NCBI RefSeq assembly: GCF_008704395.1 | Contig: NZ_CP023695.1 | Location: 6,944,001 to 7,008,000, forward strand | Length of the DNA stretch: 64,000 nucleotides | Direction of reading: 5' to 3' | Source: Streptomyces alboniger | GTDB taxonomy: Bacteria > Actinomycetota > Actinomycetes > Streptomycetales > Streptomycetaceae | Part shown: positions 30,197 through 41,470 of the stretch, in pieces | Numbering within the stretch: position 1 is the first letter of the stretch | How the letters are laid out: each line of letters begins with the position of its first letter | Notes under the pieces: model-generated | Database searches by the model: none | What the model was told of the DNA's origin: nothing | The model's input: the letters and a program-made list of their open reading frames with translations, nothing else | Position numbers and translations under genes: made by a program

Positions 30197-31708
30197 TCAG
30201 GCGCCGGCCCCCACCAGCAGCTCCGCCGCCGCGATCCCCGACACGCGGGTCGCGCCGTGCGTGATCAGATGGGCGGCACCGAGCGTGTCGCCCGCGGGCA
30301 CGCCCATCTCGACGACCAGCGCGTCGGGGCGGCTGCGCAGGAGGCGGTGCAGGGTGTCCGTCATCCAGCGGTGGCGGGCCGCGTCGCGGACCACGACCAC
30401 CAGGGCACGCCCCGCGGCCGGGGCCAGCGCCTCGCTGTCCAGGAGGTCGCAGGTGTGGGTGAGTTCGGGTTCTGTGAGGCGTACGGACGTCGTGCCCGGG
30501 CGCAGGGCGCGCAGGGGTTCGGCGATGCCCCAGGGAGTGTGGCCGTCGATGGCGAGGTTCATCGTCGGGGACAGCTCCACGACGTGGGGTGCCCCGGCCA
30601 GCGGCAGCACCGTTCCGCAGCGGTAGCGGACGCGGACCGCGCGGCGCGCCGCGACCAGGCCGATGCCGGAGTCCCGCGCGGCGCGCGCCACGGCCCGCGA
30701 TTGTGCGCCGGACCAGGCCGCGAAGTCGCGCACGCGGGCGCTCGCCGCGGCCAGCCGCTCCTCGGGGAGCATGCCGTCGAGCACGGCCTTCACCAGGGCC
30801 GTGGCGAGCAGGTCGACCGTGTCCTCCCCGGCGCTCTCGCCACCCACGCACACCGCGTCCACGCCGCCCGCGACCGCGCGGACCGTCGCGCCGTCGATGC
30901 CGTAGCGGTCGGTGACGGCACCCATCTCGATGCCGTCGGTGACCAGCAGCCCGTCGAAGCCCAGCTCCCCGCGCAGCAGGTCCGCCAGGATGGGGCGGCT
31001 GAGGGTCGCCGGCAGGTCGGGGTCGTACGCGGGAGCCAGCAGATGCGCGGTCATCACAGCGCGGACGCCCGCCTCCATCGCCGCGATGAACGGCGGCAGC
31101 GCGGTGCGCGCGATCTCCTCCGCGGAGCCCCGCACCTGCGGAAGGCCGTAGTGCGAGTCGACAACCGTGTCGCCGTGCCCGGGGAAGTGCTTGGCGCAGG
31201 CGGCGACGCCGGCCCCTTGCAGACCGCGGATCCAGGCGGCCGTGTGCCGGGAGACGAGATCGGTGCGGGAGCCGAACGAGCGTACGCCGATCACAGGGTT
31301 GAGGGGGTTGGAGTTCACGTCCGCGCTGGGCGCGAAGTTGAGCGAGACGCCCGCCGCGTGCAGATCACGGCCGATGTCATGGGCCACGCGCTCGGTCAGA
31401 TCGATGTCGTCGACCGCGCCGAGGGCCAGATTGCCGGGACGCGACGAGCCGGTCCACGCCTCCAGCCGGGTCACGTCCCCCGCCTCCTCGTCGATGGCGA
31501 CGATCAGATCGGGATTCTCCGCGCGCAGGGAGGCGGTGAGCCGCGCGACCTGCTCGGGGCTCTGGATGTTGCGCGCGAACAGTACGACGGAGCGCAGGCC
31601 CTCGGAGATCCTGCGGCGTACCCAGTCGGGGGCCGTGGTGCCCTCGAAGCCGGGCTGTAGCACGGAGTTGGCGAGGTGCTCCAGAGTCGGGTCACTGCTC
31701 GATGCCAT
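30197..31708 (-). CDS. Glycoside hydrolase family 3, probable beta-N-acetylglucosaminidase
   Basis: 503 residues. The NagZ-type signature KHFPGHGDTVVDSH is at 173-186, containing the Asp-His dyad seen in N-acetylglucosaminidases. The nucleophile is Asp258 in LLVTDGIEMGA. A C-terminal GH3 domain follows. It should remove terminal GlcNAc from chito-oligosaccharides or muropeptide fragments. No signal peptide is visible, so it acts in the cytoplasm. The ATG follows GGAGG. A DasR-like operator at its promoter supports a role in GlcNAc metabolism. Confidence 0.87.
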   Translation of the reverse strand: MASSSDPTLEHLANSVLQPGFEGTTAPDWVRRRISEGLRSVVLFARNIQSPEQVARLTASLRAENPDLIVAIDEEAGDVTRLEAWTGSSRPGNLALGAVDDIDLTERVAHDIGRDLHAAGVSLNFAPSADVNSNPLNPVIGVRSFGSRTDLVSRHTAAWIRGLQGAGVAACAKHFPGHGDTVVDSHYGLPQVRGSAEEIARTALPPFIAAMEAGVRAVMTAHLLAPAYDPDLPATLSRPILADLLRGELGFDGLLVTDGIEMGAVTDRYGIDGATVRAVAGGVDAVCVGGESAGEDTVDLLATALVKAVLDGMLPEERLAAASARVRDFAAWSGAQSRAVARAARDSGIGLVAARRAVRVRYRCGTVLPLAGAPHVVELSPTMNLAIDGHTPWGIAEPLRALRPGTTSVRLTEPELTHTCDLLDSEALAPAAGRALVVVVRDAARHRWMTDTLHRLLRSRPDALVVEMGVPAGDTLGAAHLITHGATRVSGIAAAELLVGAGA

Positions 31709-31728
31709 GGCGCGACCTCCGAAGTTGC

Positions 31729-31830
31729 GGGTACGTGGGACCGGGTACGTGGGACGAGGCTCGCGGGTGCGAGGGGCGAGGCTCATGGGGCGTGGCGCGC
31801 GGGCCGGGGCCCGTGGGGCGTGGTGTGGTG
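31729..31830. repeat. Short G-rich repeats in the GH3 leader
   Basis: GGGTACGTGGGAC occurs twice in tandem near 31729-31755, followed by further GGGGCGTGG-type units to about 31830. They lie in the untranslated leader between the GH3 promoter and its start codon. No coding or obvious regulatory role was found. Confidence 0.45.
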
Positions 31831-31846
31831 AGCGGGGCTCCTGCTG

Positions 31847-31862
31847 ATTGGTCCAGGCCAAT
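31847..31862. promoter_or_regulatory. dre-like operator (DasR site)
   Basis: ATTGGTCC-AGGCCAAT is a near-perfect palindrome closely matching the dre element bound by the GlcNAc regulator DasR (consensus core TGGTCTAGACCA). It lies just downstream of the predicted transcription start of the GH3 gene, a normal repressor position. DasR is known to control chitin and GlcNAc genes in streptomycetes. Confidence 0.6.
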
Positions 31863-31872
31863 CGGATAGTGG

Positions 31873-31902
31873 ATATTGGCTCGTATCGATCGGGGCTGTC
31901 AA
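31873..31902 (-). promoter_or_regulatory. Promoter of the GH3 gene
   Basis: TTGACA (31902-31897), 18 bp, CAATAT (31878-31873). The predicted start near 31866 places the dre-like site at about +4 to +20. The leader to the ATG is about 160 nt. Confidence 0.55.
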
Positions 31903-32003
31903 GAAGTGCGAACAGGCCGAGACGGGTGAATGTGACCCTGTGGCGGCCGAGTTGGGGAATGCTGGTGACTTCCGCTGATCGCAACCGGTGAGGGGAGAGG
32001 GCC

Positions 32004-33005
32004 ATGCGCAGATACGAACTCGTCGGCAGGCGCGACATCAGGCTGGTCACCGACGTGGCGGTGCCGGACCCGGGGCCGCTGGAAGTCCTCGTCCGCGTCC
32101 ACGCCTGCACGGTCTGCAACCGCAGCGACCTCGCCTACTTCCACTACCACGGGCTGCGCGAGCACTGCTCCCAGGGCTGTTTCGGTCACGAGATCGCCGG
32201 AGTCGTCGAGGCGACCGGCGCGGGCGTGAGCCGGGTCGTGCCCGGCCAGCGGGTCTTCGTACGGACGCCGCTCACCACCGGATACGCCGACTACGCGCTG
32301 GCCCGCGAGATCTCCGTGGGGGTGCTCCCCGACGCCGTCCCCTTCGAGCAGGGCGCGATCCTGCAACTGCTGCCGCTCGCCGTGCACGCCACCCGCGGCA
32401 TCCGCCTCGGCGACCGCGTCGCGATCGTCGGCCAGGGGCCCGTCGGCCAGCTGGCACTGCGCGTGGCGGTGGCCCGCGGCGCCGCCGAGACCGTCGCCGT
32501 CGACCTCGACGACTGGCGCCTTGAGCGGTCGTCCGCCGCGGGCGCCGACGCGGTGCGCCGGGTGGACGGCAGCCGTGAGCAACTGGCCGCCGTCGGTGCC
32601 GACTTCGACGTCGCGATCGACGCGGTCGGCACCCCGACCACCCTCAACGCCTGCGTGGAACTCGTATGCCAGAACGGCCTCGTCGTCCTCCTCGGCACCC
32701 ATCACATCGACACACACGTCAGCGTCGACCTGGTCACCTGGGAGCGCAAGGGACTGCGGGTGCACAGCTCCGCCGAACCCGTCGACACCGCGCGAGCGGA
32801 CGCGCTCGCCGTCGCCGAACGCCTCGCCCACCGCCGCGTCGCCGCCCTGCGCCTGGCCGACCTCCACACCCACACCTACCCCCTCGACGAACTCCCGAAG
32901 GCCTTGGAGCAGCTCTCCGCCAGCCGCGCCCTGTACCCCGACGGCGAGCGCGCCCCCTACGACGGGCCGCCCCGCGAGACGCTGAAGGTCGCGATCATCC
33001 CGTGA
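32004..33005 (+). CDS. MDR-family alcohol/polyol dehydrogenase
   Basis: 333 residues. The GroES-like domain has VRVHACTVCNRSDLAYFH and GCFGHEIAGVVEATGAGV, with Cys and His/Glu residues in the places of the catalytic zinc ligands. The Rossmann block is RVAIVGQGPVGQLALRVAVARGA. The four-cysteine structural zinc loop is missing. Family members oxidise polyols or sugars, or reduce the ketones. ATG follows GGGGAGAGGG. It is followed after 22 bp by a Gfo/Idh/MocA gene, and the pair converges on the LuxC/LuxE-type operon, suggesting a shared biosynthetic locus; that link is inference. Confidence 0.82.
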   Translation: MRRYELVGRRDIRLVTDVAVPDPGPLEVLVRVHACTVCNRSDLAYFHYHGLREHCSQGCFGHEIAGVVEATGAGVSRVVPGQRVFVRTPLTTGYADYALAREISVGVLPDAVPFEQGAILQLLPLAVHATRGIRLGDRVAIVGQGPVGQLALRVAVARGAAETVAVDLDDWRLERSSAAGADAVRRVDGSREQLAAVGADFDVAIDAVGTPTTLNACVELVCQNGLVVLLGTHHIDTHVSVDLVTWERKGLRVHSSAEPVDTARADALAVAERLAHRRVAALRLADLHTHTYPLDELPKALEQLSASRALYPDGERAPYDGPPRETLKVAIIP

Positions 33006-33027: not shown

Positions 33028-33978
33028 GTGAGATGGGGCATCGCCGGATACGGCGACGTCGTGACACGCCGCGCGCTGCCCGCCCTGCGCGCGCTCGGCG
33101 AGGAGCCCGTGGCCCTGTGGGGCCGCGATGCGCGGCGTGCGTCGCGCATCGCCGGGCGGTACGGCGTCGCCCGCTCGGGCACCGACCCGGACCTGCTGCT
33201 GACGGGCGTCGACGCCGTGTACGTCGCCACGCCCGTCGCGGGCCATGTGCCGCTCGCCCGCGCAGTCCTGGACGCCGGACTCCCGGTCCTGGTCGAGAAG
33301 CCCCTCGCCGGGGGCCTCGGCACGGGCGGCACGCTCGACGCGGCCGGACGGTGCGCGGGCGTGGCGTACTACCGCAGGCTCGCGCCCGCCGTACGACGGC
33401 TGCGCGCGGAACTCACCGGCTGGACGCCCGAGCGGGCCCGGGTGCGGTTCCGGTCCGCCTTCGCGCCGGGCGCCCGCGATCCGATGCGGTGGCGCACCGA
33501 CCCGGCCGTCTCGGGCGGCGGAGTACTCGCCGACGCGGGCAGCCACCGGGTCGACCTGCTCCTCCACCTCTTCGGACGCCCGTACGAGGTGACGGCGCGG
33601 CTCGGGGACCGCTTCCCCGCAGGCGCGGAGCGGCGGGCCGAACTCACCCTGCGCTGGCGGTCCGGGCTCCGGGCCCAGTGCCTCCTGGAGTGGGGCGGGG
33701 GCCCGCCGGTGGACCGCTTCGAGCTGACCGGAGGCGGCCGCGCCGTGCTGCTGGACCCGCTCGACGCGGGGCGGCTCGCGCGGTCGACCGGGCGGTCGCT
33801 CCTGCTGCCCCCGGCGCCCAATCCGCACCAGCCGCTGCTCGCCGACTTCGCGGCGGCCGTCGAGGCCGGCGGGACGCCGGTGTGCCCGGTGGCCGAGGCC
33901 CGCCTCGTCGACGACGTGATCGTGGCCGCGGAGCGCTCGGACGCGGCGGGCGCCGAGCCGGTCCTGCTCCGCGCCTGA
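33028..33978 (+). CDS. Gfo/Idh/MocA-family oxidoreductase
   Basis: 316 residues. The NAD(P)-binding N-terminus is RWGIAGYGDVVTRRALP, followed by AVYVATPVAGH and VLVEKPLAGG with the conserved EKP lysine. The C-terminal domain contains GGGVLADAGSHRVDLLLHL, which supplies the usual Asp-x3-His. Such enzymes oxidise or reduce sugars, cyclitols or imines. The GTG start lies 22 bp after the dehydrogenase stop, so the two form one transcript. The stop is only 19 bp from the convergent PhyH stop. Confidence 0.83.
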   Translation: MRWGIAGYGDVVTRRALPALRALGEEPVALWGRDARRASRIAGRYGVARSGTDPDLLLTGVDAVYVATPVAGHVPLARAVLDAGLPVLVEKPLAGGLGTGGTLDAAGRCAGVAYYRRLAPAVRRLRAELTGWTPERARVRFRSAFAPGARDPMRWRTDPAVSGGGVLADAGSHRVDLLLHLFGRPYEVTARLGDRFPAGAERRAELTLRWRSGLRAQCLLEWGGGPPVDRFELTGGGRAVLLDPLDAGRLARSTGRSLLLPPAPNPHQPLLADFAAAVEAGGTPVCPVAEARLVDDVIVAAERSDAAGAEPVLLRA

Positions 33979-33997
33979 ACGCCTCGCCCGCCGGGGT

Positions 33998-34858
33998 TCA
34001 CGCTCCGTCGTCCGCCGACCAGGGCCGCAGCCAGCGCGGATCGGGCGTGTCGCCGCGGCGCACGAAACGCGCGTCTATGGAGAGCCGCATCGCGTCCGTC
34101 GTGGTGTCCAGGGACGCGTGGATGATGTGCGGCACGTGCACCATCACGTCGCCCGCCGCGAAGTCCGCCCACAGCCAGCGGCGGCCCAGCGTGCGGGCGG
34201 TGAGTTCCAGGTCGTGGCAGATCTGGCGGCGGTCGCCCGGCCGGTCGGTGACATCGCGCAGGGGGGCGTACTCCTCGCGCGGCAGCCGGTGGGAGCCCTC
34301 CAGGTACACGAGCGCGCCGGTCCGCGGCGGGCAGTCGCCCACGGGGATCCACAGGGTGACGACGCCAGGCGAGCCCCGGTCCATGTAGTCGAAGTCGACA
34401 TGGGCACGGGAGGCCCGGCGGGTGCCCCGGTGGAAGTGGCGCAGTATGCGGCGCGGGAGCATCCGTGCTTCGCCGCCGAGGAGTTGGGAGGCGAGCGCGG
34501 CGAGGGCCGGGTCGCCGACGAACCGGTCGAAGGACACGGAGCGCACGAACGCGTACGCCGGATGCCCCGCGACCCCGTACTCCGGAACGCGCGCGGGCAC
34601 CTCACCGGAGAACACCCCGTCCTCGGGGGCGCTGCCCGCCGCGAGCAGGCCCGGCGGGAACAGTGCGAAGTACCGCCCGCGCAGCCGCAGGACCTCAGCC
34701 CGGTCGAGGAGCCCCGGCAGATACAGATAGCCGTCGGCGCGCAGCCGCTCGCGGAGCGCTGCCGGATCCCTCGGCGCCAGCAGGTCGGCGCTGGGGCGCA
34801 GGGGGCCGAAGAGGTCCGGTGTGAAGGGGACGGGTACGCCGTTCGACGACAGGTTCAC
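33998..34858 (-). CDS. Phytanoyl-CoA dioxygenase (PhyH)-family hydroxylase
   Basis: 286 residues, a non-haem iron/2-oxoglutarate oxygenase. The facial triad is His153 and Asp155 (AHVDFDY) with distal His247 (HIIHAS). Arg258 (DAMRLSID) should bind 2-oxoglutarate. Such enzymes hydroxylate aliphatic carbons, often in natural-product pathways. The GTG start is chosen because AAGGA precedes it at good spacing and the upstream frame belongs to the neighbouring gene. It is the last gene of the five-gene operon, 16 bp after the LuxE-like gene. Confidence 0.85.
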   Translation of the reverse strand: MNLSSNGVPVPFTPDLFGPLRPSADLLAPRDPAALRERLRADGYLYLPGLLDRAEVLRLRGRYFALFPPGLLAAGSAPEDGVFSGEVPARVPEYGVAGHPAYAFVRSVSFDRFVGDPALAALASQLLGGEARMLPRRILRHFHRGTRRASRAHVDFDYMDRGSPGVVTLWIPVGDCPPRTGALVYLEGSHRLPREEYAPLRDVTDRPGDRRQICHDLELTARTLGRRWLWADFAAGDVMVHVPHIIHASLDTTTDAMRLSIDARFVRRGDTPDPRWLRPWSADDGA

Positions 34859-34874
34859 GGGGGGTGTCCTTCGG

Positions 34875-35996
34875 TCAGTAGACGCCTTCCACCGCGTCGG
34901 CGGAGCCCTCGCCGCCCTCCGGGAACGGCCGCACGGCGGCCACCCCGTCCCAGGGGAACCACGGGTGCGGGCCGGTCCTGACCGCGCTGTCCCGCTCCAG
35001 GAGGTTCGGCAGGAAGAGGTCTTCGAGGAGGGTGGTGGCCCGGACGCGCCCGCGCTCACCGACGGCGACCTCGCGCCACGGGTCGGCCGGGTCGACGACC
35101 CGCAACACGGCGAAGGGCGGCGGCAGATGGTAGGAGTGCCCGGCCCCGTCCGGCACACCGGGCGCCGCCCCCGCCGCCGCATCGGCCTGGAGGGCGTGCC
35201 CGACCAGCGTGTTGCCGTAGGTGTCGATCCACTGCACACCCGCCAGGTGCTCCGCACGCAGGAACTGCGCCTCGGCGGCGGTGCAGGAGGTCCCGCCCGT
35301 GCACACCGCCCGGACGCCGAAGGTGTGCAGGGGGCGCGGCAGCCGCATCGCCAGCTCCAGGAGCAGCCGCGAGGTGGTGAAGAGCAGCGAAGGACGCTCG
35401 GCGGCCAGCAGCACCAGGGTCTGGTCGATCAGGTGCGCGGTGTACGGGTCCGCCTCGCCGCCCGAGCGCAGCGCGGCCTTCACCCAGCGCGGATCGAAGT
35501 CGATGGCGTGCACGGCGCCGCGCCAGCTGTCCGCGAGCCCCTCCACGAAGTGCCCGTACGCGTGCGGGCCGCTCGGCGTCATGGCGAGCACGTCACCGCC
35601 CGCCACGCCGCGCGCCTCCAGCACGGTGCGGTAGATCTCCACGTCGTACGCGAGACGCGTGACGTTGACGATCCGGCAGGGCGTACCGGTGGTGCCGCCG
35701 GTCTCGAAGACGCGGAAGGGCCGGTCGCGGTAGCCGCGCGGGAGCAGGTCGCGGGCGCGGGCGGTACGGAGTTCCGCCTTGTCGAAGAGGCCGAACAGTT
35801 CCAGCGCGGCGAAGCCGTCCACGTCCTTGACGGGGTCGAAGCCGAGCTTCTCGCGCCGGGCGGCCCAGAAGGGGCTCGCCGTCCCCGGATCGAAGTGCCA
35901 GCGCATCATGCGGCGCGTCCAGGTGTCGAGGTCGGTCCCCAGCTCCGGGACGCGTCGGCGCAGCGTGTCGGTCAGTGTGCCGAGGACGGTCGTCAT
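34875..35996 (-). CDS. LuxE/PaaK-type adenylate-forming enzyme
   Basis: 373 residues, the length of LuxE acyl-protein synthetases and shorter than PaaK ligases. The ATP-binding loop is FETGGTTGTPCR near 97-108. LuxE activates a carboxylic acid as acyl-AMP and loads it for reduction by LuxC. Clear differences from LuxE: no cysteine lies near the C-terminus, where LuxE carries its acyl group; the only candidates are in VCTGGTSCTAAE near 230-240. It may therefore pass the acyl group directly to its partner or to CoA. It starts 9 bp after the LuxC-like gene, so the pair is translated together. Confidence 0.78.
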   Translation of the reverse strand: MTTVLGTLTDTLRRRVPELGTDLDTWTRRMMRWHFDPGTASPFWAARREKLGFDPVKDVDGFAALELFGLFDKAELRTARARDLLPRGYRDRPFRVFETGGTTGTPCRIVNVTRLAYDVEIYRTVLEARGVAGGDVLAMTPSGPHAYGHFVEGLADSWRGAVHAIDFDPRWVKAALRSGGEADPYTAHLIDQTLVLLAAERPSLLFTTSRLLLELAMRLPRPLHTFGVRAVCTGGTSCTAAEAQFLRAEHLAGVQWIDTYGNTLVGHALQADAAAGAAPGVPDGAGHSYHLPPPFAVLRVVDPADPWREVAVGERGRVRATTLLEDLFLPNLLERDSAVRTGPHPWFPWDGVAAVRPFPEGGEGSADAVEGVY

Positions 35997-36005
35997 GCGG
36001 GGGCC

Positions 36006-37199
36006 TCACTCCGCTGGGCGGTGCACGAAAAGGGACTCGGCGGTGAGGGCCCGCACCGCGTCGGGGGCCGCGTGGAGGGCGGCGGCGAAGGGGAAGGGAA
36101 CCTCGTGACCGACCAGGGGATGACACTCGTACTCCTGCACGCACTCCCGGACGTGTTCCTGGAGCAGGACGAGTCGGGGCAGGACGCAGGGTGATCCGTC
36201 CACCAGGGCGATCGGATCCCGGCGGGTGAGCATGCGGTCGCCGGGGCGCATACGGTCGTGGACCGAGCGCAGCGCGCGATGTGCCGCTTCCGGCTCGCGG
36301 AAGACGGTGAGCGGCCAGTCGGGGCCGCCGGGAGCCGGGGGGAGGGCGTCGAGCGCGGCGGCGAGCGGGACGGCGAGGGCCGAACTCTGCCGGCGGTCCG
36401 TACAGATGACGGCGCGTACGTTGGTGCAGAAGCGTCCGGAGTCGCCCGCGACCAGGGGCAGCAGCCAGACCACGGCCTGCTCGACCGGCATGTCCGCGGG
36501 CACCAGGGCACAGCCACGGCCCGGGCCGTGCAGGGTGAGTGCCGGGGAGCCGCGAACCGACGCGGCGAGGCCGGCGCCGCCGTAGACGGTCTGCCGGTCG
36601 GTGCGCTTCAGCAGACCGTGCAGCCCACGCCGGCCGGTGGGGTAGAGGCCGATGCGGGCGGCGGGCCAGCCGACGGCGAGCAGGGCGGCGACGAGCCGGG
36701 CCGCGGAGTACGGCTCGCGTCGGCTCGGGCGCACCCAGACGGCTCCTGAGCGCTCGGCCTGGTCGAGTACGGAGTCCAGGCAGGTGAACGTGTTGCCGGG
36801 CAGTGCGACGAGGGACAGCAGGTCGTCGGGGGCCGGCCCCCCTCCCCGCTTCAGCAGGCCGTCACGGAGCAGCGCGCACCACCGGTCCACCAGCGGCCCG
36901 GGCAGCCCCGCGGTCTCCCATACGAGCGCGCGGAAGTCGTCGGCGTCCTGCTCGCCGAGGCCGCCCACGAAGACACGGCCACGGGAAAACAACTCTACTG
37001 CCGCCAGCAGCAGTTCGCGGCGTCCGGTGAACGGGGGCAGCTCGGCGCGCGTACTGTCCCACCAGCCGCGGTCGGCATGGGAGACGATCTCCGGTACCAG
37101 CGCGAGGCCGTACCCGGAGCCTGCCGCGCCGGGCAGTGCGGCGGTGTCCAGCGACGTCCGCCACTCGCCTCTGCGAAACGCGGAGAGCACCGCCCTCAC
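36006..37199 (-). CDS. LuxC-like acyl reductase (ALDH superfamily)
   Basis: 397 residues resembling the LuxC/acyl-CoA reductase branch of aldehyde dehydrogenases. The catalytic-cysteine region is SGRFCTNVRAVIC, with Cys258 as predicted acyl carrier. An NAD(P)-binding segment lies around VALPGNTFTCLDSVLDQA and PYSAARLVAALLAVGWPA. LuxC reduces an enzyme-bound acyl group to the aldehyde with NADPH. The GTG at 37199 overlaps the TGA of the upstream fusion gene (GTGA), so translation is coupled. It is somewhat shorter than marine LuxC (about 480), missing part of the N-terminal region. Similarity is moderate, so the substrate is open. Confidence 0.72.
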   Translation of the reverse strand: MRAVLSAFRRGEWRTSLDTAALPGAAGSGYGLALVPEIVSHADRGWWDSTRAELPPFTGRRELLLAAVELFSRGRVFVGGLGEQDADDFRALVWETAGLPGPLVDRWCALLRDGLLKRGGGPAPDDLLSLVALPGNTFTCLDSVLDQAERSGAVWVRPSRREPYSAARLVAALLAVGWPAARIGLYPTGRRGLHGLLKRTDRQTVYGGAGLAASVRGSPALTLHGPGRGCALVPADMPVEQAVVWLLPLVAGDSGRFCTNVRAVICTDRRQSSALAVPLAAALDALPPAPGGPDWPLTVFREPEAAHRALRSVHDRMRPGDRMLTRRDPIALVDGSPCVLPRLVLLQEHVRECVQEYECHPLVGHEVPFPFAAALHAAPDAVRALTAESLFVHRPAE

Positions 37200-39340
37200 G
37201 ACAGCTCGCTGCGGAGGGCGGCGACCACCCGTATCTGCTCGGCTTCCGTGAGGGACGGGTACAGCGGCAGGGCGATGTGGTGACGGGCGAACCAGCGGGC
37301 CCGCTCGAACGGCCCGTCGAGGGCGGCAGGTTGGACGTCCGCGCCGGTGAAGTACGGGTGGTCGCACAGCAGATGGTCGTAGACCTCACCGGCGAGGGAC
37401 ACCCCGTGCCGCTCCCGCAGGCGCTTCTTCAGGAGCGCGCGGTCGAGCGGGCCGTCGGGGTCGGGATAGGCGAGGTACTTGTAGAAGTTGCCGCCCACCC
37501 CGGGAGGCACGGTGTGCGGCCGTATTCCCGGGACGTCGGCGAGCAGGGTGTCGTAGCGGGCGGCGAGTTCACGGCGGGCCGCGAGGGTGTGAGCGAAGCG
37601 CTCCAGGTCCACCGTGCCGACGGCGGCGTGGAGTTCACTCAGCCGCCAGTTGCCGCCGGGACGGTCGTGCAGCGTGGAGCCCGGGGCGCTCTTGCCGTGG
37701 TCGCGCCAGCGCCGCACCTGTTCCAGGTCGCCCGGCCGGGCGGACACCAGCCCGCCCTCGCCGCTGACCGCCACCTTGGTGGGGAAGAAGGAGAAGGCGC
37801 CGAACCGCCCGAAGCTGCCTGCCGCGCGCCCGTGCAGGGTGGCGCCGAAAGCGTGCGCGGCATCCTCCACCACGGGTACGCCGCGCTCCCGGCAGTGCGC
37901 GAGGACCCCGTCGAGCGCCGGTGACACGATGCCGCCTATGTGCACCGGCAGCACGGCGGCCGTGTCGGGATACCGGTCGAGGGCCGCGCGCAGGGCGTCC
38001 GGGTCCATGCCGAGTCCGTCCAGCTCGATCTCGACGAAGCGCACGGTGGCCCGCGCGCGCACCGCCGCCGCGGCCGTGGCGAAGAACGTGTTGACGGGCG
38101 CGAGCACGGTCCTGCCCGCCACCCCGATGATCCGCAGCGCGATCTCCAGGGCCGCCGAACCGGACGCCACGGCGGCCGTCCCCGTGCCGGTCCAGGCGCG
38201 GGACAGCTCCTCGAAACGGGCCACCTGCGGGCCTTGGGTGAGGACGCCCGAGGCGAGGGCCGTATCGACGCGGTCGAGAACGGCACGCCGCTGGGACACC
38301 TCGAAGTGGATGCGCTGGGCCGGGACGTCGGCACGGGGCGGGCGGGAGTCCCACAGGGTGCGGGAGAAGAAGTCCGCCGCGTGGCCCACATGCGTGCCGT
38401 GGCCCATGGGGAGTTCATGGATCTCGACGGAAGCGGAGGCCTCGCCCGTCCCGTACGCCGATCGAACTCTGTCCGCCGCGGCGCGCGCGTCGGCCGGTTC
38501 GAGGGAGGAGTCGGCGGTGCCGTACTGGAGTTGGAGGGGCGCCGGGGCGTGCGCCGCGTACAGGTCGGGCAGGTCGGCGTATTCGAGGATGCCGGGGAGC
38601 GCCGCTCCCTCGTGGCCGGTCAACAGCCGTCCGTACAGGGCTGGGTAGCTGCCGAGGTGGCTCGCCGCGCAGAGCGGGAGGCCTTGGCGGGGGGCGAGGA
38701 GAGCGGTGTGCAGGGCGACGGCCGCGCCGAGGCTGTGGCCGAAGAGGCCTACGCGGCCGTGGTCGACGAACGGGTGTGCCGTGAGCGCGTCGAGCGCGCC
38801 CAGGGCGTCCCCGACGAGCGCGCCGAGCAGGGAGCGGCCGGTCAGCGTGAACGCGTGGGCGAGCAGGGTCCCTTCGTCCCGCCCGGCCCTGCGGTGGTCG
38901 TCGAGGCCGCCGTCGATGCCGTGGTCGAAGGAGAGCGTCACGAAGCCCGCGTGCGCCAGTTGCTCGGCGACATTGCGGTCCGGGTGGTCGGGCGGCACGT
39001 CGCCGGTGAGCTGGTCCAGGCGCGCGTTCCTCCCGCCGATGACGAGGACGGCCGGGCCGGGGGAGCCGTCGGTCCGGGCGTCGGCGGGGGCGAGGAGGGT
39101 GGCGTGGAAGGAGCCGCGTACGGGCGAGTCGAACGTCAGGTGCTCGCGGTGCAGTCCGTCGCGGACCGATGCGACGGTGTCGGTGACGGTGAGGGCCGCT
39201 TCCTCGACGCGGGCCAACCGCTGCACGACGGAGCGGAGTTGACGGGCTCGCGAAATGTGGTCCTCTAAGGCGTCGGCGTCAGGGGCGCGGCGCAGGACGG
39301 GTTCGGCGGCGAGGAGCCGGCGGAGGTGACGTACTTGCAT
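37196..39340 (-). CDS. Alpha/beta-hydrolase fused to DegT/DnrJ/EryC1-type aminotransferase
   Basis: 714 residues in two domains. About 70-332 is an alpha/beta hydrolase with nucleophile Ser203 (LFGHSLGAAVALH), acid Asp277 (QYGTADSSLEP) and a histidine at 314-320 (MGHGTHVGH). About 343-714 is a fold-type I PLP aminotransferase of the DegT family: VASGSAALEIAL, VPVVEDAAHAFG with PLP-contacting Asp493, and SFFPTKVAVSGEGG with Lys522 as internal aldimine. Both halves keep their catalytic residues. Separate proteins of each kind are common; I do not know a characterised fusion. In the operon the hydrolase could play the thioesterase part of LuxD and the aminotransferase could aminate the aldehyde product. 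Reading is continuous, with no frameshift at the join. Confidence 0.8.
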   Translation of the reverse strand: MQVRHLRRLLAAEPVLRRAPDADALEDHISRARQLRSVVQRLARVEEAALTVTDTVASVRDGLHREHLTFDSPVRGSFHATLLAPADARTDGSPGPAVLVIGGRNARLDQLTGDVPPDHPDRNVAEQLAHAGFVTLSFDHGIDGGLDDHRRAGRDEGTLLAHAFTLTGRSLLGALVGDALGALDALTAHPFVDHGRVGLFGHSLGAAVALHTALLAPRQGLPLCAASHLGSYPALYGRLLTGHEGAALPGILEYADLPDLYAAHAPAPLQLQYGTADSSLEPADARAAADRVRSAYGTGEASASVEIHELPMGHGTHVGHAADFFSRTLWDSRPPRADVPAQRIHFEVSQRRAVLDRVDTALASGVLTQGPQVARFEELSRAWTGTGTAAVASGSAALEIALRIIGVAGRTVLAPVNTFFATAAAAVRARATVRFVEIELDGLGMDPDALRAALDRYPDTAAVLPVHIGGIVSPALDGVLAHCRERGVPVVEDAAHAFGATLHGRAAGSFGRFGAFSFFPTKVAVSGEGGLVSARPGDLEQVRRWRDHGKSAPGSTLHDRPGGNWRLSELHAAVGTVDLERFAHTLAARRELAARYDTLLADVPGIRPHTVPPGVGGNFYKYLAYPDPDGPLDRALLKKRLRERHGVSLAGEVYDHLLCDHPYFTGADVQPAALDGPFERARWFARHHIALPLYPSLTEAEQIRVVAALRSELS

Positions 39341-39358
39341 GGCGCGGTCCCGTCCCGG

Positions 39359-40588
39359 TCAGACGAAATCGCCGTGCAGGGTTGTGGGCACTTCCAGCGC
39401 GTACGCGTCGAGCGCCTCGTCCAGTGCGATCCGGCCGCGTTGGAGGAGTTCCAGGAGTTCGTTCTGCGGGCGGTAGAAACACGATTTGCACAGGTCGGTC
39501 CTGCGCGGATTGGAAGCCTCCCAGGCGGCGCGCGGGCCGCCTTCGAGTACTTCGGCGTATCCCTGTTCTACGACATTGCCGATGAGATAGCGGCTGTTGA
39601 GATGCACCTGAGGGCACGGGTAGAGATTTCCGTCGGCGCCGACCGCCGTGACGAAACGGCTGTAGTGGCAGCGCTCGAAGTCACCCTCGACCTCGTCGAT
39701 CTGGTCCATCGGGCCGCGGTCCAGCTTGGGCACCGAAACCTCGAAGGCGTCGGTGGACAGAGCGGCGGCCCTGGTGAGCGACTCGGAGATCTCCGGCATC
39801 ACCGATTCGATGGTGTCGTGGCCGAGCGCGCTGTAGAACTCCGGCTCGAAGCGCACGTAATGCGCTCCGGATTCCAGGGCGATATGGGCCGCCTGGAGAA
39901 TCTCCCGGTAATTCCGCAGGGTGATCACGTAGTTGAAGCCGATGCGGAAGTCGGGGTCGGCCGCGCTCTCCCTGAGCCTGCCGACCGAGCCGACGAACCG
40001 CGAGAACGTCTGCTCCCGGTCCCGGGTGATGTCGTCGAAGGTCGCTTCCGTGCCCGCGTTCAGGCCGATGCGGACCCAGGTGTGGGTCTCGGCGACGCAG
40101 GCGGCGACCTCGGGGCGGCCGAGCCGCGAGCCGTTGGTGATCAGGCCGATCCGCAGCCCCGCGGTGTGCCCGGCCCGGCAGATGCCGGTGTACCCCGGGT
40201 GGATGGTGCACTCGCCGCTGCCGCAGAACGTCACGGCCCGGCCGTCGTTCGCGGCGAACTCGCGCAGCAGGGTGACCGCCTTGTCGGTGGCGATCGAGTC
40301 CTTGAACGAGAACAGGTCGTAGAACTGCTCTTCGTTGGGGGAGTGGAAGTTGCAGAAATGGCATCGCATATTGCAGGCGCCCATGATGCCGATCCGCATA
40401 TGGACTGGCTTGATCTCCTGGCCCGCGACGAACCGGCGCAGCAACTCGCCGTGGGCCAGGACCTTCTGTGGTGAGTGCGCCTGATCAAGACTGACGATCG
40501 GCAGGCCTTCACGATTTTGGGGGGCTGCCCTCTTGAGGGCGCCATCGATGTCGCCCCTGAGGTCACCGGCACCGGATGTGCTGTTCAC
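39359..40588 (-). CDS. Radical SAM-SPASM enzyme of the LuxC/LuxE-type locus
   Basis: 409 residues. The SAM cluster motif GACNMRCHFCNFH gives Cys72, Cys76 and Cys79, followed by VTFCGSGECTIHPG with the GGE-like motif. The C-terminal SPASM region includes FERCHYSRF, NLYPCPQVHLN and DLCKSCFYRPQNE. Radical SAM-SPASM enzymes modify peptides or oxidise sugars and cyclitols (BtrN type). No precursor-peptide frame is visible nearby, so a small-molecule substrate is favoured. The GTG at 40588 is chosen for the G-rich stretch before it; a GTG at 40609 is also possible. It is the first gene of the operon, and its base composition seems a little less G+C-rich than its neighbours. Confidence 0.83.
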   Translation of the reverse strand: MNSTSGAGDLRGDIDGALKRAAPQNREGLPIVSLDQAHSPQKVLAHGELLRRFVAGQEIKPVHMRIGIMGACNMRCHFCNFHSPNEEQFYDLFSFKDSIATDKAVTLLREFAANDGRAVTFCGSGECTIHPGYTGICRAGHTAGLRIGLITNGSRLGRPEVAACVAETHTWVRIGLNAGTEATFDDITRDREQTFSRFVGSVGRLRESAADPDFRIGFNYVITLRNYREILQAAHIALESGAHYVRFEPEFYSALGHDTIESVMPEISESLTRAAALSTDAFEVSVPKLDRGPMDQIDEVEGDFERCHYSRFVTAVGADGNLYPCPQVHLNSRYLIGNVVEQGYAEVLEGGPRAAWEASNPRRTDLCKSCFYRPQNELLELLQRGRIALDEALDAYALEVPTTLHGDFV

Positions 40589-40642
40589 GAACCCCCCACG
40601 CAAGGTCACTGTGCGTTTTCGCTGTTCGAGACGGTCCTTGCG

Positions 40643-40671
40643 ACGTTAGGGAGCGCCGAGGCGGCTGTCAA
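40643..40671 (-). promoter_or_regulatory. Promoter of the five-gene LuxC/LuxE-type operon
   Basis: TTGACA (40671-40666), exactly 17 bp, TAACGT (40648-40643). This is an almost ideal vegetative promoter. The start near 40636 gives a leader of about 48 nt to the radical SAM gene. No other convincing promoter occurs in the short gaps of the operon. Confidence 0.7.
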
Positions 40672-40705
40672 CGGGGCTGGACGACAACGGAGTTGGGGGT
40701 GTATT

Positions 40706-40724
40706 CGCCGGTGGCAGACCGGCG
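40706..40724 (-). terminator. Hairpin after the HTH-ClpN gene
   Basis: CGCCGGT-N5-ACCGGCG forms a 7-bp GC stem 12 bp downstream of the HTH-ClpN stop. It would insulate that gene from the operon promoter at 40643-40671. Confidence 0.5.
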
Positions 40725-40735
40725 TCGGGCCGCGG

Positions 40736-41470
40736 TCATGCCGAGGTCGCGTCCGCCAGGAACTCGGCGATCGAGGCCGAGAGACCGTCCCTGCCCAGGC
40801 CGAGACCCGTGAGCGGACCTCTGCCGTCCTCGGACTCGACCAGGGCCAGCAGGATGTGCTCGGTCCCGACGTGGTGGTGGCCGAGGCGCAGCGCTTCGCG
40901 GAAGGTCAGTTCGAGCACCTTGCGGGCCCCCGCGTCGTACGGCACGAGCTCGGGCACCTCGTCGGCCGTAGCTGGCAGGGCGTCCAGGGCCGCCCGGCGT
41001 ACGTCCTCCAGGGCGACGCCCTGTGCCGTGATCGCCTTGGCGGCGACGCCGTCCGGCTCACTCAGCAGGCCCAGGACCAGGTGCTCGGTGCGGATCTCGT
41101 CGTGGTGGGCCGCCTTGGCTTCGTTGTGCGCGGCCATCACGACGTTCCTGGCCCTGGGGGTGAAGCGGCTGAAACCCTGGTTCGGGTCGAGGTCGTTGGG
41201 CTCGTCCGGCTTCTTGGGCACGAACCGCTTCTGGGCGGCCTGCCGGGTGACGCCCATGCTCTTGCCGATGTCGGTCCAGGAGGCGCCCGAGCGGCGGGCC
41301 TGGTCCACGAAGTGGCCGATGAGGTGGTCGGCGACGTCACCCAGGTGATCGGCGGCGATGACCGCGTCGGAGAGCTGGTCGAGGGCGTCGGTGTGGACCT
41401 TCTTGATGGCGTCGATGAGGTCGTCGAGGCGGACCGTGGGCGCGGGTGTGGTGCGGTCTGCATGCGTCAT
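40736..41470 (-). CDS. HTH protein with C-terminal Clp N-domain
   Basis: 244 residues. The N-terminal part has a predicted helix-turn-helix near 64-83 (GASWTDIGK ... TRQAAQKRF). Residues about 99-240 form a double Clp-N repeat (FTPRARNVVMAAHNEAKA, EIRTEHLVLGLL, then ARKVLELTFREALRLGHH, VGTEHILLALV) like the substrate-recognition domain of ClpC/ClpA, but no ATPase follows. It could bind DNA and be steered by proteins normally recognised by ClpC. Its ATG lies 6 nt after a -10 box, so the mRNA is probably leaderless, and GTTGAC repeats overlap the promoter, suggesting autoregulation. Confidence 0.82.
   Translation of the reverse strand: MTHADRTTPAPTVRLDDLIDAIKKVHTDALDQLSDAVIAADHLGDVADHLIGHFVDQARRSGASWTDIGKSMGVTRQAAQKRFVPKKPDEPNDLDPNQGFSRFTPRARNVVMAAHNEAKAAHHDEIRTEHLVLGLLSEPDGVAAKAITAQGVALEDVRRAALDALPATADEVPELVPYDAGARKVLELTFREALRLGHHHVGTEHILLALVESEDGRGPLTGLGLGRDGLSASIAEFLADATSA

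Follow-up and report, generated by a model that had tools for sequence, protein, structure and literature searches.

What kind of carboxylate chemistry is encoded where an adenylating enzyme, a reductase and an aminotransferase stand side by side in one Streptomyces operon? The window analysed, a 64-kb stretch of Streptomyces alboniger DNA (64,000 nucleotides; contig NZ_CP023695.1, positions 6,944,001 to 7,008,000), comes from a genome of 7.96 Mb in one contig whose nearest named relatives are Streptomyces. The original prediction, made from the sequence alone, read five of its genes as a Lux-type fatty acid reductase (LuxC, LuxD and LuxE) coupled to an aminotransferase, an undescribed module for converting a carboxylate to an amine. 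The enzyme pair is in fact of an already known kind, that of EhpF and EhpG, and it belongs to a conserved set of seven genes. On balance, this set would be a small biosynthetic cassette with a carrier-free EhpF/EhpG-type carboxylate reductase, making a metabolite probably derived from a sugar or cyclitol (aminosugar- or aminocyclitol-like).

Judged by profile comparison, the adenylating enzyme is an EhpF. The profile of its 373-residue family, searched against solved structures, matched EhpF (3hgu, 3hgv and 3l2k) over positions 21–364 of 364 with an E-value of 3.4e-60 and 207 bits, and no match other than EhpF fell below E 0.4. When the family was aligned with Pantoea EhpF using hhalign (100 %, E 2.2e-42) the two ended at the identical residue; the full-length identity of the window protein with Pantoea EhpF is 32 % and both terminate in EGVY. 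The window protein alone gave an AMP-binding match below the Pfam threshold, no C-terminal AMP-binding (ANL) domain was found among its Pfam matches, and it is co-terminal with EhpF. EhpF itself reportedly lacks this domain, and Bera and co-workers are said to have proposed in 2010 that, with EhpG, it makes an aldehyde from phenazine-1,6-dicarboxylate. The last three residues, GVY, are shared by 117 of the 120 EhpF-like relatives listed, the other three ending in GIY or GLY, and this near-invariant terminus may serve as a handle on acyl transfer to the reductase. EGVY is likewise the terminus of the host genome's second EhpF copy and of a plasmid relative, and another Streptomyces plasmid relative ends in EGIY.

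The adjoining reductase is a compact protein with an aldehyde dehydrogenase (ALDH) fold. On its own it gave no Pfam match and, at E ≤ 0.1, no NCBIfam match; among 20 aligned members of its family (the window's included), the 19 relatives all match PF00171, the best at 1.3e-8. Comparison of the family with Pantoea EhpG by hhalign gave 99 % (E 5.5e-18), the similarity to EhpG itself being 24 % over 294 columns. The AlphaFold model, with a pLDDT (predicted local distance difference test) of 91.7, matched ALDHs in the PDB, the best being 1uxv (E 2.7e-18, TM (template modelling) score 0.74 by query length), and its best folds were those of GAPN-type ALDHs. Across 50 reductase sequences Cys258, Asn136 and Glu366 never vary. 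In GAPN the Glu of the ELGG motif is the general base; at the aligned position the 50 sequences have Leu (31), Val (18) or Met (1) and never Glu, and a GPGR stretch common to EhpG and the window family stands where GAPN-type ALDHs have ELGG. With an ALDH fold, a catalytic Cys and an EhpF next door, the protein has the marks of an EhpG-like reductase. Carboxylic acid reductases (EC 1.2.1.30) carry adenylation, peptidyl carrier and reductase domains in one chain (A-PCP-R); no carrier or reductase domain was found among the Pfam matches here, and the pair is not of that type.

In an annotated plasmid of Pantoea agglomerans an ehpF-type gene is followed by an ALDH gene within a phenazine cluster, that of D-alanylgriseoluteic acid, and PMC11278526 calls a pair of this kind ehpF and ehpG. 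The window set resembles the Pantoea pair in its EhpF homology, its EGVY terminus and an adjoining ALDH-fold partner with GPGR, but it has no phenazine genes, its reductase has 397 residues instead of 473, and the gene order is reductase–EhpF rather than EhpF–EhpG. It also adds sugar-type enzymes, a radical S-adenosylmethionine (SAM) enzyme, a PhyH-type oxygenase and a hydrolase–aminotransferase fusion.

Other EhpF-type genes were noted in Streptomyces. The second EhpF-type gene of the host genome (L085:12078-13130, plus strand, at 7.868 Mb) is 39 % identical, with one TGA counted inside the matched stretch; by eye, it adjoins open reading frames (ORFs) resembling an aromatic amino acid lyase, an FAD (flavin adenine dinucleotide) enzyme and an adenylation enzyme of the nonribosomal peptide synthetase type. 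On a plasmid of Streptomyces angustmyceticus (L073), an EhpF-type 'arylcarboxylate reductase' gene lies amid futalosine genes (MqnE, MqnC and 1,4-dihydroxy-6-naphthoate synthase), apparently in a secondary-metabolite cluster.

The Lux labels of the original prediction have to be given up, since Pfam, NCBIfam and hhalign, and for the reductase also the GAPN-type fold, place the two proteins outside the LuxC and LuxE families. The reductase has no match to PF05893 at E ≤ 1 and none in NCBIfam (NF052251) at E ≤ 0.1; none of 18 aligned members of the adenylating family matches PF04443, and the window protein has no NCBIfam match (NF052244) at E ≤ 0.1. LuxE accepts the acyl group on a Cys near its C-terminus, and no such Cys occurs between the ERD motif and GVY in the 18 aligned rows. 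The LuxD label had been given on the alpha/beta-hydrolase fold alone, and no LuxD family was matched at E ≤ 0.1. As a positive control, the host genome has genuine LuxC and LuxE at about 7.63 Mb, which match PF05893 (307.7 bits) and PF04443 (90.5 bits) and also, below cut-off, NF052251 and NF052244; compared by hhalign with these two, one protein each, the window families scored 0.5 % (LuxC) and 0.1 % (LuxE). A search of the host genome with the LuxC model found the 7.63-Mb gene and one other place, which is not the window gene. A true Lux-type fatty acid reductase, with LuxE transferring the acyl group, LuxC reducing it and a LuxD-like thioesterase, would share with the window pair its general logic of an adenylating enzyme and an ALDH-superfamily reductase, and 14 of the 20 aligned reductases (not the window's) do match PF05893 weakly, the best at 1.8e-6. 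Their matches to PF00171 are stronger, however, both partners belong to families other than those of Lux, and such an identity is hardly credible. No luciferase was among the families called in general Pfam scans of the window proteins, in which no search was aimed at luciferase. At 7630899-7635083 of the host genome, the genuine LuxE gene adjoins a LuxC domain fused to an AMP-binding domain.

The five genes originally described do form a tight minus-strand series from 40588 to 33998, with successive gaps of 18, −4 (one GTGA overlap), 9 and 16 bp, and the assignments as radical SAM-SPASM and PhyH proteins were borne out, both passing the Pfam cut-offs. The 'one strong promoter' stands in part. 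The TTGACA-N17-TAACGT site upstream is the sole exact match to TTGACAN16-18TANNNT in the window (0.02 expected), and an alignment of the window with five close relatives shows it to be conserved along with the GTG start and a GGGGG stretch; a scan of 33900-40900 for TATAAT-type promoters found none, so that 'strong' is fair only in a looser sense. The boundary of five genes was rejected because two convergent genes, overlooked in the first reading, co-occur with the core and belong to the set: a Gfo/Idh/MocA oxidoreductase and a zinc-type alcohol dehydrogenase (Zn-ADH). The conserved set is thus one of seven genes, those for the radical SAM enzyme, the hydrolase–aminotransferase, the EhpG-like ALDH, EhpF, PhyH, Gfo and Zn-ADH, often with an extra NagZ-type GH3 gene, which is probably an accessory. 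A Clp_N gene upstream was considered as a member and dropped, being present at 5 of 30 loci, as were LuxR-type, GMC and cytochrome b genes further out, for which the loci compared held no similar ORF.

Table 1. Features of the window and radical SAM genes found without the core (positions in the window, or in the fetched stretch named)
Feature	Position	Strand	Basis or remark
Promoter-like TTGACA-17-TAACGT	40643..40671	-	upstream of the first gene (radical SAM); spacer N17
Radical SAM/SPASM enzyme	39359..40588	-	PF04055 55.2 bits, PF13186 31.8 bits
Fusion of alpha/beta-hydrolase (about 1-345, GHSLG, S203/D277/H314) and DegT/DnrJ/EryC1/StrS aminotransferase (K522)	37196..39340	-	PF01041 257.7 bits
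Compact EhpG-like ALDH-fold reductase, 397 aa	36006..37199	-	hhalign to EhpG, AlphaFold/PDB fold, PF00171 of relatives
EhpF-type adenylating enzyme, C-terminal EGVY	34875..35996	-	PDB profile and hhalign to EhpF
PhyH-type Fe/2-oxoglutarate oxygenase, HxD present	33998..34858	-	PF05721 56.2 bits
Gfo/Idh/MocA oxidoreductase, convergent	33028..33978	+	PF01408 and PF22725 over cut-off; 24/30 named loci
Zinc-type alcohol/polyol dehydrogenase, convergent	32004..33005	+	PF00107 and PF08240 over cut-off; 24/30 named loci
NagZ-type GH3, extra copy adjoining the set	30197..32002	-	PF00933 227.6 bits
Core-less radical SAM ORF, L077	9313-10596	-	
Core-less radical SAM ORF, L078	9345-10586	-	
Core-less radical SAM ORF, L079	9286-10332	+	

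Gene content, families, intact active-site residues and co-inheritance could be observed directly. A single scan of named genomes yielded 30 loci, presence being counted within the fetched stretches. EhpF was found at all 30, the reductase at 28, the aminotransferase and PhyH at 27 each, the radical SAM enzyme and the hydrolase at 25, Gfo and Zn-ADH at 24, and a NagZ-type GH3 at 20. Contig ends truncate five loci (L045, L061, L062, L065 and L068), which accounts for many of the absences. The reductase and EhpF genes are adjacent, in unchanged order, at 28 of the 30. The GH3 gene lies directly past Gfo/ADH or PhyH at 18 of the 20 loci that have it; of the remaining copies, that of L054 is near a sugar-binding-protein locus and that of L069 is only 32 % identical. 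With some reshuffling, the set spans Streptomyces, Nonomuraea, Actinospica and a Bradyrhizobium, and it persists in a different arrangement at L042, L043, L060, L063, L065, L066 and L069 (the Bradyrhizobium). The pairwise distances of six operon domains correlate with r 0.92-0.97 over 26 loci and the window. The original prediction would have fallen had homologous loci never held these genes together; across the named loci they co-occur widely.

Of 392 congeneric genomes, ten including the host carry the reductase (E below 1e-100) and 13 the radical SAM enzyme (E ≤ 1e-40), the same ten and three more. In a phylum sample the radical SAM enzyme was found in one of 396 genomes, that of the host itself, so it is the 30 named loci that show co-occurrence beyond the genus.

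The remaining enzymes suggest what the pair might act on. The claimed hydrolase–aminotransferase fusion, a single continuous ORF at 9 loci aligned over their full length, holds firmly for the aminotransferase half, which passes the Pfam cut-off and belongs to the DegT/DnrJ/EryC1/StrS family, its pyridoxal phosphate Lys (K522) being invariant in 10 of 10 aligned rows. The alpha/beta-hydrolase matches of the other half are weak and under the cut-off, but Ser203, Asp277 and His314 are kept in the 9 aligned rows that have it. Nearly all the hydrolase-half homologues listed (best 120 of 155) are fusions, in a search spanning about 393-1250 residues, to which free-standing hydrolases under about 393 residues are invisible. 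The best PDB match of the DegT domain is of the perosamine synthetase type, with inosose aminotransferases among the matches; that of Gfo is anhydrofructose reductase and that of Zn-ADH sorbitol dehydrogenase. At some distant loci a GT2-type glycosyltransferase and a nucleoside diphosphate (NDP)-sugar epimerase stand beside the set. The sugar origin is proposed because of these three sets of PDB matches together with the glycosyltransferase and epimerase neighbours.

The radical SAM enzyme, with the CX3CX2C cysteines C72, C76 and C79 and with C307, C325, C367 and C370 towards its C-terminus fitting an auxiliary cluster, qualifies as a SPASM protein; its sole PDB match was a weak one (E 1.2e-5) to cytosylglucuronate decarboxylase (two chains). 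The spacing of its auxiliary cysteines may be similar to that in BtrN, a radical SAM dehydrogenase. The PhyH protein matched the epimerase SnoN and SnoK in the PDB, and the window NagZ has two more homologues in the host genome, 57 % and 43 % identical. Compared with the enzymes of aminoglycoside and aminocyclitol biosynthesis (DegT inosose aminotransferase, BtrN, Zn and Gfo dehydrogenases) the set draws on the same superfamilies, all the matches being distant. The set includes no deoxyinosose synthase, for which no separate search was made.

We infer the reactions, their order and the substrate from sequence, and the following route may be suggested. EhpF would adenylate a carboxylate and hand the acyl group directly to Cys258 of its ALDH partner, because no C-terminal ANL domain was detected and the operon has no carrier protein. 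The acyl-enzyme would then be reduced to the aldehyde by hydride from NAD(P)H, and not hydrolysed, because the partner has no general-base Glu. The DegT domain would carry out an amination, the acceptor being that aldehyde or else a ketone produced by one of the two dehydrogenases, Gfo or Zn. The aldehyde is a plausible but unproven acceptor, and amination of a sugar ketone would be at least as likely because there are two sugar-type dehydrogenases in the set. The fused hydrolase might open or free an ester-like bond, and the radical SAM and PhyH enzymes would tailor the skeleton. Of the chemistry first proposed, an ATP-activated carboxylate, an aldehyde-forming reductase and a nearby aminotransferase are retained on the EhpF/EhpG homology and the conserved linkage, without the Lux families.

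Relatives of EhpF are found elsewhere in clusters of the phenazine, futalosine or isochorismate type, which makes an aromatic alternative conceivable: the carboxylate reduced by the pair could be aromatic, as has been suggested for EhpF/EhpG on the way to griseoluteic acid, with the sugar-type enzymes attaching or modifying a separate amino sugar. The EhpF of solved structure belongs to a phenazine pathway, and other EhpF relatives, encoded on plasmids of Streptomyces, carry the annotation 'arylcarboxylate reductase' or 'phenazine biosynthesis protein', with futalosine- or isochorismate-type neighbours in the two looked at. The conserved set, however, contains no enzyme forming an aromatic acid, most other flanking ORFs being unscanned, and an aromatic substrate is considered unlikely.

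In the three additional genomes with the radical SAM gene (L077, L078 and L079), the reductase, EhpF, PhyH and the fusion are absent within the 20 kb read around that gene; Gfo and a piece of the ADH gene survive in L077. All three of these core-less copies have lost one or more CX3CX2C cysteines, with the frame open and the four auxiliary cysteines kept, and those of L078 and L079 lie on very long branches. All seven cysteines are kept in 33 of 33 set-bearing locus rows with a readable radical SAM enzyme, or, with six rows that were the same locus fetched twice set aside, in 27 of 27 distinct loci, a contrast that favours the biosynthetic cassette. L077 and L079 adjoin genes for a GntR/UTRA regulator and a sugar ABC (ATP-binding cassette) transporter, L078 matches this layout by the sizes and order of its ORFs, and a NagZ homologue is near all three. 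We take such a locus to resemble dasR-dasABCD; the host genome has one at 5.30 Mb (by ORF order and by eye), without the radical SAM gene.

That the set or the radical SAM remnant adjoins a locus of this kind in some Streptomyces, and that an extra NagZ copy is present, would fit a catabolic or salvage cassette in which the dehydrogenases, hydrolase and NagZ degrade an amino sugar and the ALDH is oxidative. Oxidising ALDHs, by contrast, keep the general-base Glu that is replaced in all 50 reductases. An ATP-spending EhpF, a radical SAM enzyme and PhyH are also better suited to synthesis, the distribution is sparse, and degradation seems quite improbable.

A more far-reaching version of the sugar-derived cassette can be put forward only tentatively, and as a whole it is rather doubtful: an amino-sugar or aminocyclitol acid would be reduced by the carrier-free pair and the aldehyde aminated by the hydrolase-fused DegT enzyme, the SAM cluster of the radical SAM enzyme being kept only with the rest of the pathway and the extra NagZ giving self-protection against a hexosaminidase-directed product, so that a new class of natural product would result. 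Ideas of allosamidin and of a hexosaminidase inhibitor were followed in the literature and led to nothing.

Several observations weigh against the sugar-derived biosynthetic cassette. The family resemblance behind the sugar origin is distant, the EhpF of the known pathway acts in phenazine biosynthesis, and the role given to the hydrolase is a guess. L070 (a fragmented draft) has Ala at the Ser203 position. Gfo and ADH are both absent near the set at L054, L056, L062, L066 and L068 (L062 and L068 being cut by contig ends), and Gfo also at L042; L042, L054 and L056 do have a Gfo homologue at a greater distance or in another part of the genome, and a search for one in Actinospica (L066) gave nothing. 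In Streptosporangium sandarakinum (L067, with full flanks) EhpF is present, and a genome-wide search for the reductase at E ≤ 1e-15 found none; this locus looks decayed, with Gfo in two overlapping pieces and only shortened matches to EhpF and ADH. The distance correlations also mirror species kinship and are 0.79-0.93 within Streptomyces.

As to novelty, cascades from carboxylate to amine are already known: PMC9594044 describes how, for tambjamine, cluster-encoded enzymes (TamA/TamH) activate, reduce and aminate a fatty acid. That cascade uses an acyl carrier protein thioester and has a thioester reductase domain fused to the transaminase; in the present set the fusion partner of the transaminase is an alpha/beta-hydrolase, and no carrier was seen. 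As a type of conversion, the module first proposed is not new. No paper on the gene set or its product was found in the open-licence literature, the only literature searched, so that its unpublished status is not proven; the cassette as a whole is best read as a pathway absent from that literature. It would extend EhpF/EhpG-type carboxylate reduction beyond phenazine chemistry into a wider, sugar-flavoured pathway, it may offer biocatalysis a compact two-protein carboxylate reductase requiring neither carrier nor phosphopantetheine, and it points to a metabolite of sparse but phylogenetically wide producers.

Some minor features of the distant loci were also recorded. A protein with a DMFA2_C domain (N,N-dimethylformamidase beta-like) is encoded close to the set at L043:2154-4223 on the minus strand and recurs there as similar ORFs at L042, L060, L066 and L067, all in actinobacteria other than Streptomyces. 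The set is found outside Actinomycetota at L069 (Bradyrhizobium sp. 21) and L065 (a metagenome-assembled genome named Nostocales, the bin assignment being as named). At both, an NDP-sugar-epimerase-like gene adjoins PhyH, that of L069 being assigned only by similarity to the L065 gene.

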